From: Ruminococcus sp.
GTDB lineage: Bacteria; Bacillota; Clostridia; Oscillospirales; Acutalibacteraceae
Direction: 5' to 3'
Length of the DNA: 35,944 nt
Assembly (NCBI GenBank): GCA_023665555.1
Contig: JAMPDR010000019.1
Location: forward strand, 1-35,944
A program made the translations under genes and the position numbers. Positions 10,391 through 32,602 of this stretch are shown here, one piece after another. Position 1 is the first letter of the stretch. Every line of letters begins with the position of its first letter. The notes under the pieces were generated by a model. The model was not told where the DNA came from. It made no database searches and worked only from the letters and a program-made list of their open reading frames with translations.

Positions 10391-12067
10391 TTAATAATGC
10401 GCTGCACCGCAGGCGCAGGTTTTATTTGTGTGAAAAACTTGATAGAAAATTTTAACAAGTGTCCAGAAGAAGCCTACAATTCCTGATTGATGGCACATGC
10501 AGTCACAGCTTTCAGTGTCGGGTTCGGTTGGTTCTGTGGGTGCAACAGAGGAGAGTTGTTTTCCACAGTTGTCACATTTACCATTATTGTCAGTATCGCT
10601 GTGGCTGTTTGTTGATGGAATGACAACATCATATGAATCACCGCAAGCGATGCAGACGTGAGTCATTGAGCCGTCCTTGTCGCAAATTGGGAGAACGATG
10701 TTCTTTATGTAGTAGTTGTGCGGAATTTTTTCGATAGGGATGAAGTCAAGTACATCACAATTTCTGCATGAATAGCATTTACCTCCTTCTTGTGTGCATG
10801 TAGGAACTATATCTAAATTCTCGCACCGGTAGTATTGATGCTGACTGTTTTTTTCGATGGTTGTAATATCTGTTTTTGCGGAGCAACGTTTACAATGATG
10901 TGATTTATAACCATTATAACCACAAGTGGAGTTACTATCAATTGTCCATTCCGTGGAATAGTCATGTCCGAGTGCAGGTATAACTTCGCCATATGAATAT
11001 TGACAGATGGTACAATAAAAATGATTGAAACCATCTTCAGTGCATGTCGGTTCACGTGTGCTTGATTCTAAAATATAATGATGTTCTCGTGGCATAACAG
11101 TTATGTCCACTGCTGCTTCAGCACAACGTATACAATGACGTGACTTGATTCCTTCTTCCAAGCATGTTGGTTCTTTGTCAATAGTCCATTCGTCTGAATA
11201 GTCATGTCCAAGTGCTGTTCCCTTGTCTATTATTTTGTCGGTTGCATCGCCACAAATGTCACAAATTGCTGTTTTTGTGCCGTCGGTTGTGCATGTTGCG
11301 TTATTATTTGAAATATAATTTGAAAATCTGTGACCAGTTGCTAAAATTGTTTCTGTAAGCTTTGCGCCACAGAAACATGAAGTTGACATTACACCGTTTT
11401 TAGTGCAGGTTGGTTGCGTGATGATTTCTTGTGAGGTATAGATAGGTTCATGAACACCGTTTAAGTGAACAACATTAGTTAATAGCTCGTTATGTTCACC
11501 TATTTCAACATTAGCCCAATCATCCTTGCTTCCTAAATAGTATGCATATTTAAGATTAATTGTTCCTCCATTAATTCCCAAAAGTAGAGAGAGATTTTTG
11601 TTAGCAAGATCAAAGGCACCGCTATCAATAAATTTAATGCTTTTTGGTATTACAATGCTAATTAAGGAACTACAATTGTTAAATGCTCCTATAGCAATAC
11701 TTGTAACGCTATCAGGAATGTTTATATTCATTAAATTGGTACAATTCAGAAAGGCAAATCCACCTATATTTGTAACACCTTTTGAAATTACAACACTTTT
11801 TATATATTGGGTATAAGCCTTCCAGGGACTATTAAGATTACGTCCAATGCCTGGATAGAATATCTGAGATGGTGTGTAATAATCCATCGCTCCCTCGCCC
11901 TCGATTTTCAATACACCTGACTCCGTATCAAGTGACCAAGTAACATTATCCCCGTTGGCACCGCACTCTCCTCCAACTGTTACCGCGCTTGCTGCCAATG
12001 GCACGGTGCAGATTAGCATAATTGCCGCAAGCAAAATTGATAATGTTTTTTTCGTGATTTGTTTCAT
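10391..12067 (-). CDS. Secreted BspA-like LRR protein with Cys-pair modules and CxCxCH tail
   Basis: A 558-residue exported protein with a signal peptide (residues 1 to about 28). Residues about 75-160 hold LRR_5/BspA-type leucine-rich repeats, e.g. GAFNNCSSLISIVIPKSI. From about 210 to 510 at least six related modules of roughly 45-50 residues follow, each with PTCTxxG, a CxxC pair and a LGHDYS-type linker, known from clostridial surface proteins. A Pro/Thr/Glu linker leads to a tail beginning CDCMCHQSG and ending TCACGAAHY, with FFWTLVKIFYQVF between. BspA-like proteins act in adhesion; the Cys pairs may bind metal or form disulfides. The start at 12067 has GGAGG 8 bases upstream. The element at 12083-12267 is its leader: that RNA's terminator T-run touches this ribosome binding site. 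Confidence 0.8.
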   Translation of the reverse strand: MKQITKKTLSILLAAIMLICTVPLAASAVTVGGECGANGDNVTWSLDTESGVLKIEGEGAMDYYTPSQIFYPGIGRNLNSPWKAYTQYIKSVVISKGVTNIGGFAFLNCTNLMNINIPDSVTSIAIGAFNNCSSLISIVIPKSIKFIDSGAFDLANKNLSLLLGINGGTINLKYAYYLGSKDDWANVEIGEHNELLTNVVHLNGVHEPIYTSQEIITQPTCTKNGVMSTSCFCGAKLTETILATGHRFSNYISNNNATCTTDGTKTAICDICGDATDKIIDKGTALGHDYSDEWTIDKEPTCLEEGIKSRHCIRCAEAAVDITVMPREHHYILESSTREPTCTEDGFNHFYCTICQYSYGEVIPALGHDYSTEWTIDSNSTCGYNGYKSHHCKRCSAKTDITTIEKNSQHQYYRCENLDIVPTCTQEGGKCYSCRNCDVLDFIPIEKIPHNYYIKNIVLPICDKDGSMTHVCIACGDSYDVVIPSTNSHSDTDNNGKCDNCGKQLSSVAPTEPTEPDTESCDCMCHQSGIVGFFWTLVKIFYQVFHTNKTCACGAAHY

Positions 12068-12082
12068 TTTTTAGACCTCCTA

Positions 12083-12267
12083 TAAAAAAGAAAAATGTGT
12101 GCAACCGAAGTCACACACACGAAAAATGCGACTTTCGATTAGCTACCACACTAAAATTCATTCTTTCACAACACACGAAATGATGAAACAGAAGTCAGCA
12201 TTTTTACCAAGGTAAAAATAGCCCACTCCGGGTATTGCAAAAGAAACTATTAAATTTTAGTGTGGTA
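12083..12267 (-). ncRNA. Structured RNA, dispersed fourth copy; leader of the LRR gene
   Basis: On the minus strand the transcript would start near 12267. A long stem, TACCACACTAAAATT (plus 12144-12158) with its exact complement at 12253-12267, encloses an inner hairpin with GGTAAAAATGCT. The conserved linker GCATTTTTCG follows, then a terminator hairpin (GTGTG 12097-12101 / CACAC 12112-12116) and a T-rich run at 12083-12095. The hairpin loop can pair with CGAAAGTC just upstream, allowing one bulged base. The order of parts matches the three tandem copies at 30735-31286, but the stems differ in sequence. The terminator ends 3 bases before the LRR gene's ribosome binding site, so read-through would be needed to express that gene from this promoter. 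I cannot name the family. Confidence 0.7.
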
Positions 12268-30480: not shown

Positions 30481-30708
30481 TTAGGAATTTAAAATCAATG
30501 ATACAGCGGTTTTGAAGCCTTGTTCAAAAGCAGCTGCATTTTCAATTTTGCGTACTTCGCTTAAAGCATCAACAATGCCTTCTTCTAAAGTCTGATTCTT
30601 AATCAAGCTGATATTTCCGTAAAGAGTTTCGAGTGCCTGCTTTTCTTCTTCTGTAGTGACTATATCGTTGTTCTTTTTCATGTATTTATAAATCTTTTTC
30701 GCATCCAT
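30481..30708 (-). CDS. Small DUF6809-like protein behind the structured RNA array
   Basis: A 75-residue soluble protein, MDAKKIYKYMKKNNDIVTTE, rich in Lys and Glu and predicted all-helical, with AAFEQGFKTAVSLILNS at the end. The pattern resembles DUF6809, small helical proteins of unknown function in Clostridia and their phages; this is recognition, not proof. I start at ATG 30708 with AGGAG 7 bases upstream; the open frame to 30747 runs into the RNA terminator. Only about 13 bases separate that ribosome binding site from the T-run of structured RNA copy 1, leaving no room for a separate promoter, so expression should depend on read-through. Confidence 0.65.
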   Translation of the reverse strand: MDAKKIYKYMKKNNDIVTTEEEKQALETLYGNISLIKNQTLEEGIVDALSEVRKIENAAAFEQGFKTAVSLILNS

Positions 30709-30734: not shown

Positions 30735-30882
30735 TAAAAAAGTGCACCCAAACGAGTGCACCGAAAAATGCAATCTCGTTTGTTTGCAGTTAAATTGAAT
30801 TCGCCCACGGAGAATATCAAAATAGAGATAGCACTTTTACCAAGTTGCTACCGTGAGCCGCAATTTTATTCAATTTAACTGC
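30735..30882 (-). ncRNA. Structured RNA copy 1 (gene-proximal)
   Basis: Predicted transcript of about 148 nt. The outer stem GCAGTTAAATTGAAT (plus 30786-30800) is perfectly complementary to 30868-30882. An inner stem (plus 30803-30810 with 30851-30858) has one U-G pair on the minus strand that would be A-C on the plus strand. The apical hairpin carries GGTAAAAGTGCTATCTC. After the outer stem come AAACGAG, ATTGCATTTTTCG, and a terminator hairpin GTGCAC/GTGCAC (30742-30747, 30756-30761) followed by TTTTTTATTT. The terminator loop contains CTCGTTT, complementary to AAACGAG. Confidence 0.75.
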
Positions 30883-30888
30883 ACGAAT

Positions 30889-30917
30889 AATTTACCATAC
30901 TTTGGCTTGAAAATCAA
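30889..30917 (-). promoter_or_regulatory. Promoter of structured RNA copy 1
   Basis: On the minus strand TTGATT (30917-30912) and TAAATT (30894-30889) are 17 bases apart, with TGG before the -10. The start would fall at the base of the outer stem. Confidence 0.65.
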
Positions 30918-30930
30918 TACAAGTATGATA

Positions 30931-31088
30931 AAAATAAAAAAGTGCGCCCAAACGAGCGCACTGAAAAATGCAATCTCGTTTGTTGCAACACAAAAAATGA
31001 ATTCACCCACGGGGAATATCAAAACTGAGATAGCACTTTTTCAAAAGTTGCTACCCGTGGGTTGTGAATCTTTAATTTTTTGTGTTGC
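30931..31088 (-). ncRNA. Structured RNA copy 2
   Basis: Predicted transcript of about 158 nt. The outer stem is GCAACACAAAAAAT (plus 30985-30998) with its exact complement at 31075-31088, a different sequence from copies 1 and 3. The inner stem is CACCCACGGG/CCCGTGGGT. The apical AAAAGTGCTATCTC segment, the internal TTTTGATATTC, and AACGAGATTGCATTTTTC are conserved. The terminator stem is GTGCGC/GCGCAC (30942-30947, 30956-30961), a compensatory change from copy 1, followed by TTTTTTATTTTTAT. Confidence 0.75.
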
Positions 31089-31094
31089 ACGAAT

Positions 31095-31123
31095 AATTTA
31101 CCACACTTTGGCTTGAAAATCAA
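31095..31123 (-). promoter_or_regulatory. Promoter of structured RNA copy 2
   Basis: On the minus strand TTGATT (31123-31118) and TAAATT (31100-31095), 17-base spacer, TGG before the -10. Confidence 0.65.
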
Positions 31124-31135
31124 TACAAGTATGAT

Positions 31136-31286
31136 AAAAATAAAAAGTGCGCCCAAACGAGCGCACTGAAAAATGCAATCTCATTTGAGCGATTAATTTG
31201 AATTCCACATCGAGAATATCAATTTGAGAGATAGCACTTTTACCAAAGTGTTATCTCGATGTGAAAAACTTATTCAAACTAATCGC
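31136..31286 (-). ncRNA. Structured RNA copy 3 (distal)
   Basis: Predicted transcript of about 151 nt. The outer stem is GCGATTAATTTGAAT (plus 31189-31203) with 31272-31286; one position is a G-U pair on the minus strand and a mismatch on the plus. The inner stem is CACATCGAG/CTCGATGTG, again unlike the other copies. The segment before the linker is AAATGAG, which still pairs with the loop CTCGTTT through a U-G pair. The terminator is GTGCGC/GCGCAC (31147-31152, 31161-31166) with TTTTTATTTTTAT. Confidence 0.75.
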
Positions 31287-31292
31287 ACGAAT

Positions 31293-31321
31293 AATTTACC
31301 ATATTTTATGATGAAAATCAA
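31293..31321 (-). promoter_or_regulatory. Promoter of structured RNA copy 3
   Basis: On the minus strand TTGATT (31321-31316) and TAAATT (31298-31293), 17-base spacer. The spacer differs from copies 1 and 2 but keeps its length and the TGG, so the hexamers appear selected. Confidence 0.7.
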
Positions 31322-31428: not shown

Positions 31429-31449
31429 AATTATCGCATAACAAATCGA

Positions 31450-31486
31450 CTATTCTCCTAAAACGTACCATGTTTCAGGAGAATAG
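31450..31486. promoter_or_regulatory. Large palindrome upstream of fic, candidate operator
   Basis: CTATTCTCCTAAAAC (31450-31464) and GTTTCAGGAGAATAG (31472-31486) form a 15-bp inverted repeat with one mismatch. A further half-site, TATAGGAGAA, overlaps the proximal promoter's -10 region at about 31527-31536. No T-run follows, so an operator is more likely than a terminator. Confidence 0.5.
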
Positions 31487-31498
31487 CTGCATAATTCA

Positions 31499-31549: not shown

Positions 31550-32602
31550 ATGAGAAAATTTGATTACTCAGAATTAATAACCCGAAATTGGGATAATGAA
31601 ATTTTGGGTTATGTTGCTCAGATTCATGAATTTAAAGGCAGACAAGAACTTTATTTAAAGCAGAAGCCTGTTGAACTTGACAGGCTGATTGAAATTGCAA
31701 AAATACAAAGTACAGAGGCATCAAATGAAATTGAGGGTATACGCACAACGAGTACAAGATTAAAGCGGCTTTGTGAAGATAAAACTATGCCGAAAACTCG
31801 TGATGAAAGAGAAATAATGGGCTACAGAGATGTTCTCAACACGATTCATGACAGTTATGAATATATTCCTCTGAGATCCAATTATATTTTACAGCTTCAT
31901 CGAGATTTATATAGATATTCTGAAAAGGGAATCGGTGGAACATTTAAGAATACTCAAAATTATATCAGCGCAACAGATTTAAACGGAAATAGCTGTGTTC
32001 TTTTTACACCTCTTGCACCGTATGAAACACCGACTGCTATCGATGATATTTGTGAAAGTTTTAATCATGTAATTGATACACAGGAAATTGACCCGTTGAT
32101 TTTGATTCCGATATTTATACATGATTTTCTTTGTATTCATCCATTTAGCGACGGAAACGGCAGAATGAGCCGCTTGTTGACGATCTTACTTTTATATAGG
32201 AGCGGTTATTTTATCGGAAAGTATATTTCAATTGAAAGTAAGATAGCTAAGAATAAAGTGCTTTACTATGATGCACTTGAACAAAGCCAATATGGGTGGC
32301 ATGAAAACACTGATGATCCAACGCCGTTTATAAAATATATGCTTTCAATAATATTGTCGGCATATAGAGATTTTGAAGAAAGAGTGGACCTTGTTGGAGA
32401 AAAGCTTTCTGCAATTGAACTTGTTAAACGTGCCGCCTATGGTAAAATAGGAAAATTTACCAAGACGGAGATCATGGAACTTTGTCCGACTATCAGTAAG
32501 GCATCGGTTGAAATTTCAATGAAAAAGCTGGTTGATGATGGAACACTCATTAAGCACGGAAACGGACGTTCCACTTTTTATACAAGAGGAGATGCTGAAT
32601 AA
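31550..32602 (+). CDS. Fic-domain protein (AMPylator) with winged-helix C-terminus
   Basis: A 350-residue Fic protein. The active-site motif HPFSDGNGRMSR (HPFx[D/E]GNGRxxR) lies near residue 203 and is complete. SNEIEG near residue 62 is the inhibitory-helix motif ([S/T]xxxE[G/N]) placed before the Fic core, so this is a class II, self-inhibited enzyme. An N-terminal Fic_N-like segment precedes it, and the last about 60 residues (IGKFTKTEIMELCPTISKAS, then VEISMKKLVDDGTLIKHGNG) form a winged helix that may bind DNA. Such proteins transfer AMP to target hydroxyls and can autoregulate. The start at 31550 lies behind GGTGAT. No antitoxin gene is adjacent, which fits built-in inhibition. Confidence 0.88.
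   Translation: MRKFDYSELITRNWDNEILGYVAQIHEFKGRQELYLKQKPVELDRLIEIAKIQSTEASNEIEGIRTTSTRLKRLCEDKTMPKTRDEREIMGYRDVLNTIHDSYEYIPLRSNYILQLHRDLYRYSEKGIGGTFKNTQNYISATDLNGNSCVLFTPLAPYETPTAIDDICESFNHVIDTQEIDPLILIPIFIHDFLCIHPFSDGNGRMSRLLTILLLYRSGYFIGKYISIESKIAKNKVLYYDALEQSQYGWHENTDDPTPFIKYMLSIILSAYRDFEERVDLVGEKLSAIELVKRAAYGKIGKFTKTEIMELCPTISKASVEISMKKLVDDGTLIKHGNGRSTFYTRGDAE

Follow-up and report, generated by a model that had tools for sequence, protein, structure and literature searches.

We identified three head-to-tail units on the minus strand (31321-30737) of the window (the whole stretch of DNA that was analysed, 35,944 nt), each consisting of a promoter with an extended -10 box, then a long basal stem (P1) with an apical part and, last, a terminator; they belong to a large paralogous family with about 25 copies in their own genome. 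Each unit is, in our judgment, quite likely a cassette of a promoter and a cis-acting transcription attenuator, in which two complementary stretches (block1 and block2) and the terminator would form a switch answering to a trigger that the copies share. The architecture, the promoter positions, the gene context, and the covariation of the named helices are each directly supported by the data given below.

The promoter of unit A (31293-31321) has TTGATT at 31321-31316, a 17-nt spacer ending in TGG, and TAAATT at 31298-31293; the predicted RNA of this unit (31142-31286) contains P1, P2, and a hairpin P3, with block1 at 31241-31228, block2 at 31182-31169, and the terminator at 31167-31146. Unit B has its promoter at 31095-31123 (TTGATT 31123-31118, TAAATT 31100-31095) and its RNA at 30937-31088 (block1 31040-31027, block2 30977-30964, terminator 30962-30941), and unit C has its promoter at 30889-30917 (TTGATT 30917-30912, TAAATT 30894-30889) and its RNA at 30737-30882 (block1 30838-30825, block2 30777-30764, terminator 30762-30741), all on the minus strand; all three promoters are assigned by their sequence and by positions that are fixed in 115 copies. 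The predicted spacing of successive RNA starts (at about 31286, 31088, and 30882) is thus 198 and then 206 nt. When nine further copies of this genome, all from outside the window, were used to build a covariance model, it found units A, B, and C with E-values of 1.5e-14, 1.1e-15, and 1.4e-15 (reporting unit C as 30737-30883); since the model was not built from them, the units are not chance folds. An earlier interpretation made from the letters of this DNA (the sequence-only reading) had proposed three tandem promoter-RNA-terminator units on this strand, and direct reading and the predicted terminators bear this out; its TTGATT-17 nt-TAAATT promoter with TGG before the -10 box is present in all three, and its basal stem of 14-16 bp, different in each unit and still paired, measures 14-15 bp in the minimum-energy folds, with a sequence unlike in each of the three units.

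The same reading spoke at one point of four copies; the array has three, and a fourth is found at a distance from it, at window positions 12092-12266 (minus strand), where the covariance model matches a copy with a block1/block2 variant (GACTTC / GAAAGTC) and a TATAAT box upstream. The gene behind this fourth copy (10391-12067, minus strand) encodes a 558-aa BspA-type LRR_5 protein, and its start codon is about 25 nt past the RNA. The gene presumably regulated by the array (30481-30708, minus strand) encodes a 75-aa protein and has an SD and ATG 28 nt beyond the unit C terminator; the protein matches DUF6809 weakly (E 9e-5, 23.7 bits, below the Pfam cut-off of 27). There is also a strong 16-bp hairpin at 31449-31487 (GCTATTCTCC...GGAGAATAGT), between the array and a divergent Fic-domain gene (31550-32602).

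Alignment of 115 copies on the first P1 base revealed T(93%)T(90%)G(84%) at positions -35 to -33 and, in the extended -10 region (TGnTAnAnT), T(92%)G(93%) at -15/-14, T(93%)A(94%) at -12/-11, A(84%) at -9, and T(95%) at -7, with a 17-nt spacer in the consensus. Because these positions are fixed relative to P1, transcription should start at the base of P1, where the sequence-only reading had also placed it, and the promoter belongs to the conserved unit. It is the fixed positions, not the count of mismatches, that point to a promoter: the count discriminates weakly (at most four mismatches to the consensus in 103 of the 115 copies vs 359 of 575 shuffles), and a simple promoter scan of the window does not list the promoters of units A-C.

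With the array as BLAST query, the own genome (2.6 Mb in 120 contigs, 98% complete) yielded 15 further matches, all on other contigs, and the nine-copy covariance model located 25 sites in it at E <=1.2e-4 (one being merely a 3′ remnant), together with two weak antisense shadows. The family extends to relatives: 38 of 59 related genomes, including the own genome, have a match at E 0.01, among them 27 of the 33 others of the same genus. With a second covariance model, matches were found in at least 136 of 394 genomes sampled at the level of the order (E 1e-4) and at least 93 of 391 sampled at the level of the class (E 1e-6), the own genome included in both; both counts are lower bounds, since just seven candidates were scored per genome. 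A pattern of 19 fixed bases matched 14 named stretches, 11 of which are from Clostridia or Oscillospiraceae MAGs (ruminant-derived where the host is named), so that we assign the family to the Clostridia; the other three are in unrelated genomes and are probably chance matches. The 115 copies come from a search of 100 of 104 distinct places (L038, L125, L128, and L133 were left out, and overlapping duplicates among the own-genome places are uncounted in the 104), and another 29 copies from 27 order-level loci bring the set used for gene context to 144; 62 chosen sources were used to build a model, R2.

No Rfam 15 family reaches its gathering threshold anywhere in the window, in keeping with the sequence-only reading, which could name no known class and asked that the drum and skipping-rope motifs be excluded. 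A permissive scan of the array (E up to 5) gave 22 weak matches, each scoring far under its threshold (the best 27.1 bits against 186), and neither motif is among them; the Rfam library scanned presumably includes the drum motif. Skipping-rope is Rfam family RF02924 (PMC7779021). For one other own-genome copy the best match scored 17.8 against a threshold of 46, and 20 loci with further copies gave 5S rRNA and tRNA outside the element and nothing else; a T-box model is absent among the Rfam matches of the window, the array, this other copy, and the 20 loci. The element is recognisable in no title or abstract start among the literature matches listed, and this family of leader RNAs is apparently undescribed. 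Carriage by phages was considered and found no support: two exact patterns of the element matched no stretch in viral contigs, and one DUF6809-like protein had no confirmed relative there.

In the RNA, P1 encloses P2 and P3. Block1 is the 3′ strand of P3, and a conserved GGTAAAAGTGC..TCTC block makes up the P3 loop and block1; block2 (GAGATTGCATTTTT) lies 3′ of P1 after a few bases (a conserved rCAA). Block2 is complementary to block1, and its left part is also complementary to the terminator loop. The conserved blocks had earlier been described as unpaired: they are indeed conserved, but GGTAAAAGTGCTATCTC is the loop and 3′ strand of P3 and is complementary to the downstream GAGATTGCATTTTT. 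Strong conservation is found mostly in these switching strands, the P3 loop (GG.AAA), the outer part of P1, and the rCAA after P1; other apical parts are little conserved, and we saw no large conserved unpaired core beyond the switching strands.

We exchanged strands between 99 non-redundant copies (drawn from the 115, with redundant or short rows dropped) and found that each copy's own pairing is far better for P1 (z -31), P2 (-37), P3 (-14.5), block1:block2 (-16.8), block2 with the 5′ strand and loop of the terminator (-15.4), and the terminator (-16.2), as compared to four control pairings with z between -1.3 and +1.5. Finer swaps in 76 copies (kept from 102, which came from 88 chosen sources) gave z -9.7 for the left part of block1 with the right part of block2, -10.0 for the right part of block1 with the left part of block2 (the outer part of this pairing), and -12.8 for the left part of block2 with the terminator loop, against four controls between -0.7 and -2.2, two of which reach -2.1 and -2.2. 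The right part of block2 is complementary to the terminator 5′ strand without covarying with it (swap z -1.0 in the 76 copies; no kept double changes in 51 contrasts), and this is the pairing by which block2 would actually shut out termination. An extended antiterminator using the 3′ strands of P1 and of the terminator was set aside as weak (z -2.2).

Relatedness among copies was handled by 51 disjoint nearest-neighbour contrasts, in which compensatory double changes exceed the null in P1 (86 vs 7.3), P3 (32 vs 5.4), the inner part of block1:block2 (13 vs 1.9), block2:loop (9 vs 2.8), and the terminator (10 vs 0.8); for outer block1:block2 pairs, significant in the swaps, these contrasts show no significant excess (1 vs 0.7). 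Telling against the switch, one-sided changes break the pair in 44 of 85 cases in P3 and in 27 of 52 in the middle of block2:loop. Across 102 aligned copies, P1, block1:block2, and the terminator together have 95.0% of cells paired (shuffles 83.3%, slid alignments at most 62.3%), and P1, P3, and the antiterminator together 87.3% (shuffles 74.1%, slid at most 53.5%), figures that favour P1, P3, and the terminator, to which the alignments were fitted, block1:block2 being outside the model; the middle of block2:loop is paired in just 62-72% of cells. The covariance-model search of Clostridia that the sequence-only reading had called for thus yielded homologues, the swaps and contrasts show covariation beyond chance in them, and its view of a selected RNA, rather than a decaying duplication, is supported by the helix covariation.

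We compared the closest pair of copies in each of six arrays (31123-30737 of the window and loci L013, L164, L076, L185, and L010): identity is 0.88-0.96 in the promoters, 0.83-1.00 in block2, and 0.88-1.00 in the terminators, whereas on the 5′ side of P2, which is still paired, it falls to 0.50-0.69, compared to 0.56 for random 20-mers. The 3′ side of P2 is 0.59-0.82 identical in these pairs, its cut taking in a partly conserved joining stretch, and in the B/C pair of the window the identity of P1 is also just 0.46; other pairs within arrays are less alike throughout (for example, unit A has promoter identities of 0.80 and 0.82 with units B and C). These identities indicate that the stems change faster than their flanks while remaining paired. 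Such turnover could come from insulation of the copies from one another, from gene conversion of the flanks, or from template switching that corrects palindromes. A purely DNA-level account, in which palindromes are kept perfect by replication template switching and no selection acts on RNA, would explain what resembles a rapid replacement of arms between near-identical promoters; we consider it highly improbable, because the covariation also joins separate segments outside any single palindrome (block1 with block2, and block2 with the terminator loop) and because the position before genes, the U-run, and the promoter are all conserved.

Some copies depart from the common form. At L010:4488-4574 (minus strand), a 3′ remnant of block2 and terminator alone stands just past a coding region, where it may have been reused as a plain terminator, and an own-genome copy at L015:2928-3186 (minus strand) has an enlarged apical part and is about 259 nt long. 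A further shared piece, GCGTATGACGTCTAACCGC, and its close variants occur after the terminator in L014, L016, L017, and L018 and between array units in L013; in four copies it precedes the SD of a long exported protein.

The copies lie immediately upstream of genes. Downstream of 120 of the 144 copies, a same-strand ORF with its own SD begins no more than 300 nt away (at a median of 30 nt); 16 copies have another copy next in line, seven are without a same-strand gene or further copy, and one is at a contig end. A start codon occurs within 50 nt in 80 of 124 copies, compared to 145 of 2880 random sites and none of 104 mirror sides, and within 150 nt in 111 of 124, compared to 482 of 2880 and 8 of 104. 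In 79 of the 120 copies no more than 50 nt separate leader and gene, leaving little space for a second promoter, so expression should often need read-through; in 8 of the 120 the start codon is more than 150 nt away. The 120 ORFs were called mechanically, and some may be spurious, since for some copies the nearest long ORF is on the opposite strand (e.g., at L097, L102, L104, L155, L156, L158, and L172). This placement suggests 5′ leaders in which RNA polymerase has to pass the terminator to reach the gene and, as in an attenuator, an intrinsic terminator is predicted by sequence between the promoter and the start codon. An attenuator working through a leader peptide was rejected, there being no conserved short ORF in the leader (an SD-preceded ORF of at least six codons in just 16 of 102 copies, scattered over several different positions).

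The sequence-only reading had instead taken the units to be independent RNAs. As stand-alone RNAs, they would each end at their own terminator after about 150 nt and act in trans or bind a protein. Every window unit does have its own promoter and terminator, the promoter positions are conserved, array units except the last (the 16 copies above) precede another unit and no gene, and the seven copies noted above lack a nearby same-strand gene. Such RNAs would not account for the tight one-sided position before the SD and start codons of unrelated genes, or for alternative pairings that engage the terminator loop, and block1 pairs far better with its own block2 than with the block2 of other copies; we therefore regard stand-alone action as improbable.

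The downstream genes often encode surface proteins. A hydrophobic N-terminal segment was found in 86 of the 120 downstream proteins, compared to 8 of the 23 ORFs of 150 aa or more in the window, which serve as a rough control. We scanned 110 of 117 distinct downstream proteins against Pfam (those of L078, L061, L097, L102, L015, L131, and L158 were out, and long ones were cut to 400 aa): 29 of the 110 match BspA-type LRR_5, and the other families, of 39 in total, include DUF6273 (6), DUF6809 (4), ABC_tran (3), SHOCT (3), and CHAP (3). No toxin of the ToxN/CptN/TenpN type is among the 25 of these 39 families that were listed.

We infer regulation in cis, a direction for the switch, exclusion of the terminator by block2, and a dedicated signal, as follows. 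RNA polymerase would start at the base of P1, and P1, P2, and P3 would fold first; block2, emerging just after P1, would then have two possible partners, either block1, in a pseudoknot with P1, or the terminator's loop and 5′ strand. As long as block1 stays in P3, block2 would be free to invade the terminator, and transcription would continue into the gene (on); if block1 leaves P3 and takes block2, the terminator would form and transcription would stop (off). One signal common to many loci probably tips the choice between the two states. Which state is on and which is off is deduced from the order in which the parts are transcribed; that block2 would exclude the terminator is suggested by complementarity and by covariation with the loop only. 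The mean predicted energies are -9.6 kcal/mol for P3, -13.9 for the antiterminator hairpin, -14.5 for block1:block2, and -13.9 for the terminator; over the 106 of 115 copies evaluated, the off state has a mean advantage of 4.9 kcal/mol (sd 6.4), and in 61 of these 106 the two states are within 5 kcal/mol of each other. Alternative states of fairly close energy would suit a switch.

The sensor may be of more than one kind. In one version of the switch model, an RNA-binding protein acting on P3 or the block1 loop would control antitermination, a possibility that we hold at somewhat less than even. The pattern of conservation described above fits it, with most of the apical domain little conserved; many metabolite aptamers are more conserved than this. 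The families tested offer no candidate in the own genome: CAT_RBD (BglG-type) has no match, and LoaP none above the cut-off, the one NusG-like match having counterparts in 13 of 14 control genomes, so that a BglG-type or LoaP-type antiterminator was set aside as the factor. Little conservation beyond the switching strands may fit a small-molecule aptamer as well as a protein factor. A further candidate, c-di-GMP, may be the ligand but is not an obvious one: the own genome yields four hits to the c-di-GMP-I riboswitch and a single match to GGDEF, so nothing points to a second c-di-GMP class. The four hits occur as two close pairs (C27:256-351 and C27:1-70; C81:2363-2492 and C81:2689-2776, of genome G000), and the C27 pair shares its contig with the only GGDEF match of the genome (C27:8813-9250).

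Overall, the family probably consists of on/off leader switches before many genes, often surface-protein genes, in Clostridia. For a still broader reading we see even chances: a regulatory RNA used across the class Clostridia as a portable promoter-attenuator cassette, placed before surface and lineage-specific genes and answering to one signal, be it a new riboswitch ligand or an antitermination factor. Under that reading, the competing-strand switch would be conserved while P2 is replaced almost wholesale between neighbouring copies, possibly for insulation. Should the switch model hold, Rfam 15 lacks a switch common to about 25 loci of one genome and matched in at least 93 of 391 sampled genomes of the class, and this switch would offer a handle on the choice of surface proteins in little-cultured Clostridia, as well as an orphan-ligand or orphan-factor problem that comes with a ready structural model and testable pairings.

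Compared to known systems, the element looks like a transcription attenuator or the expression platform of a riboswitch, and as far as tested it is no member of Rfam 15. The preQ1-I, fluoride, and ZTP riboswitches terminate transcription through a pseudoknot that competes against a terminator; like them, the element is a leader RNA directly before genes with such a competition, but it has no Rfam match or evident conserved unpaired aptamer core, and it occurs in many copies per genome before unrelated genes with the promoter conserved within the unit. The c-di-GMP-I riboswitches (RF01051), which control surface genes in Clostridia, are likewise multi-copy leader RNAs; the four hits in the own genome are separate from the element, none being in the window or in the 20 copy-bearing loci. 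The SLH motif is a riboswitch candidate of Clostridia that is often found before surface-protein genes, with about 60% of its members preceding genes for S-layer homology domains (PMC6429828). Like the element, it is an orphan as to its signal. The two may even be the same RNA, the distinction drawn here being one of gene context and not of alignment: the element precedes genes for BspA-type LRR proteins and many others. Among multi-copy sets of sRNAs, such as the csRNAs and Qrr, there are likewise several paralogous RNAs per genome with their own promoters; unlike these, the element lies immediately before genes and has competing pairings around its terminator.
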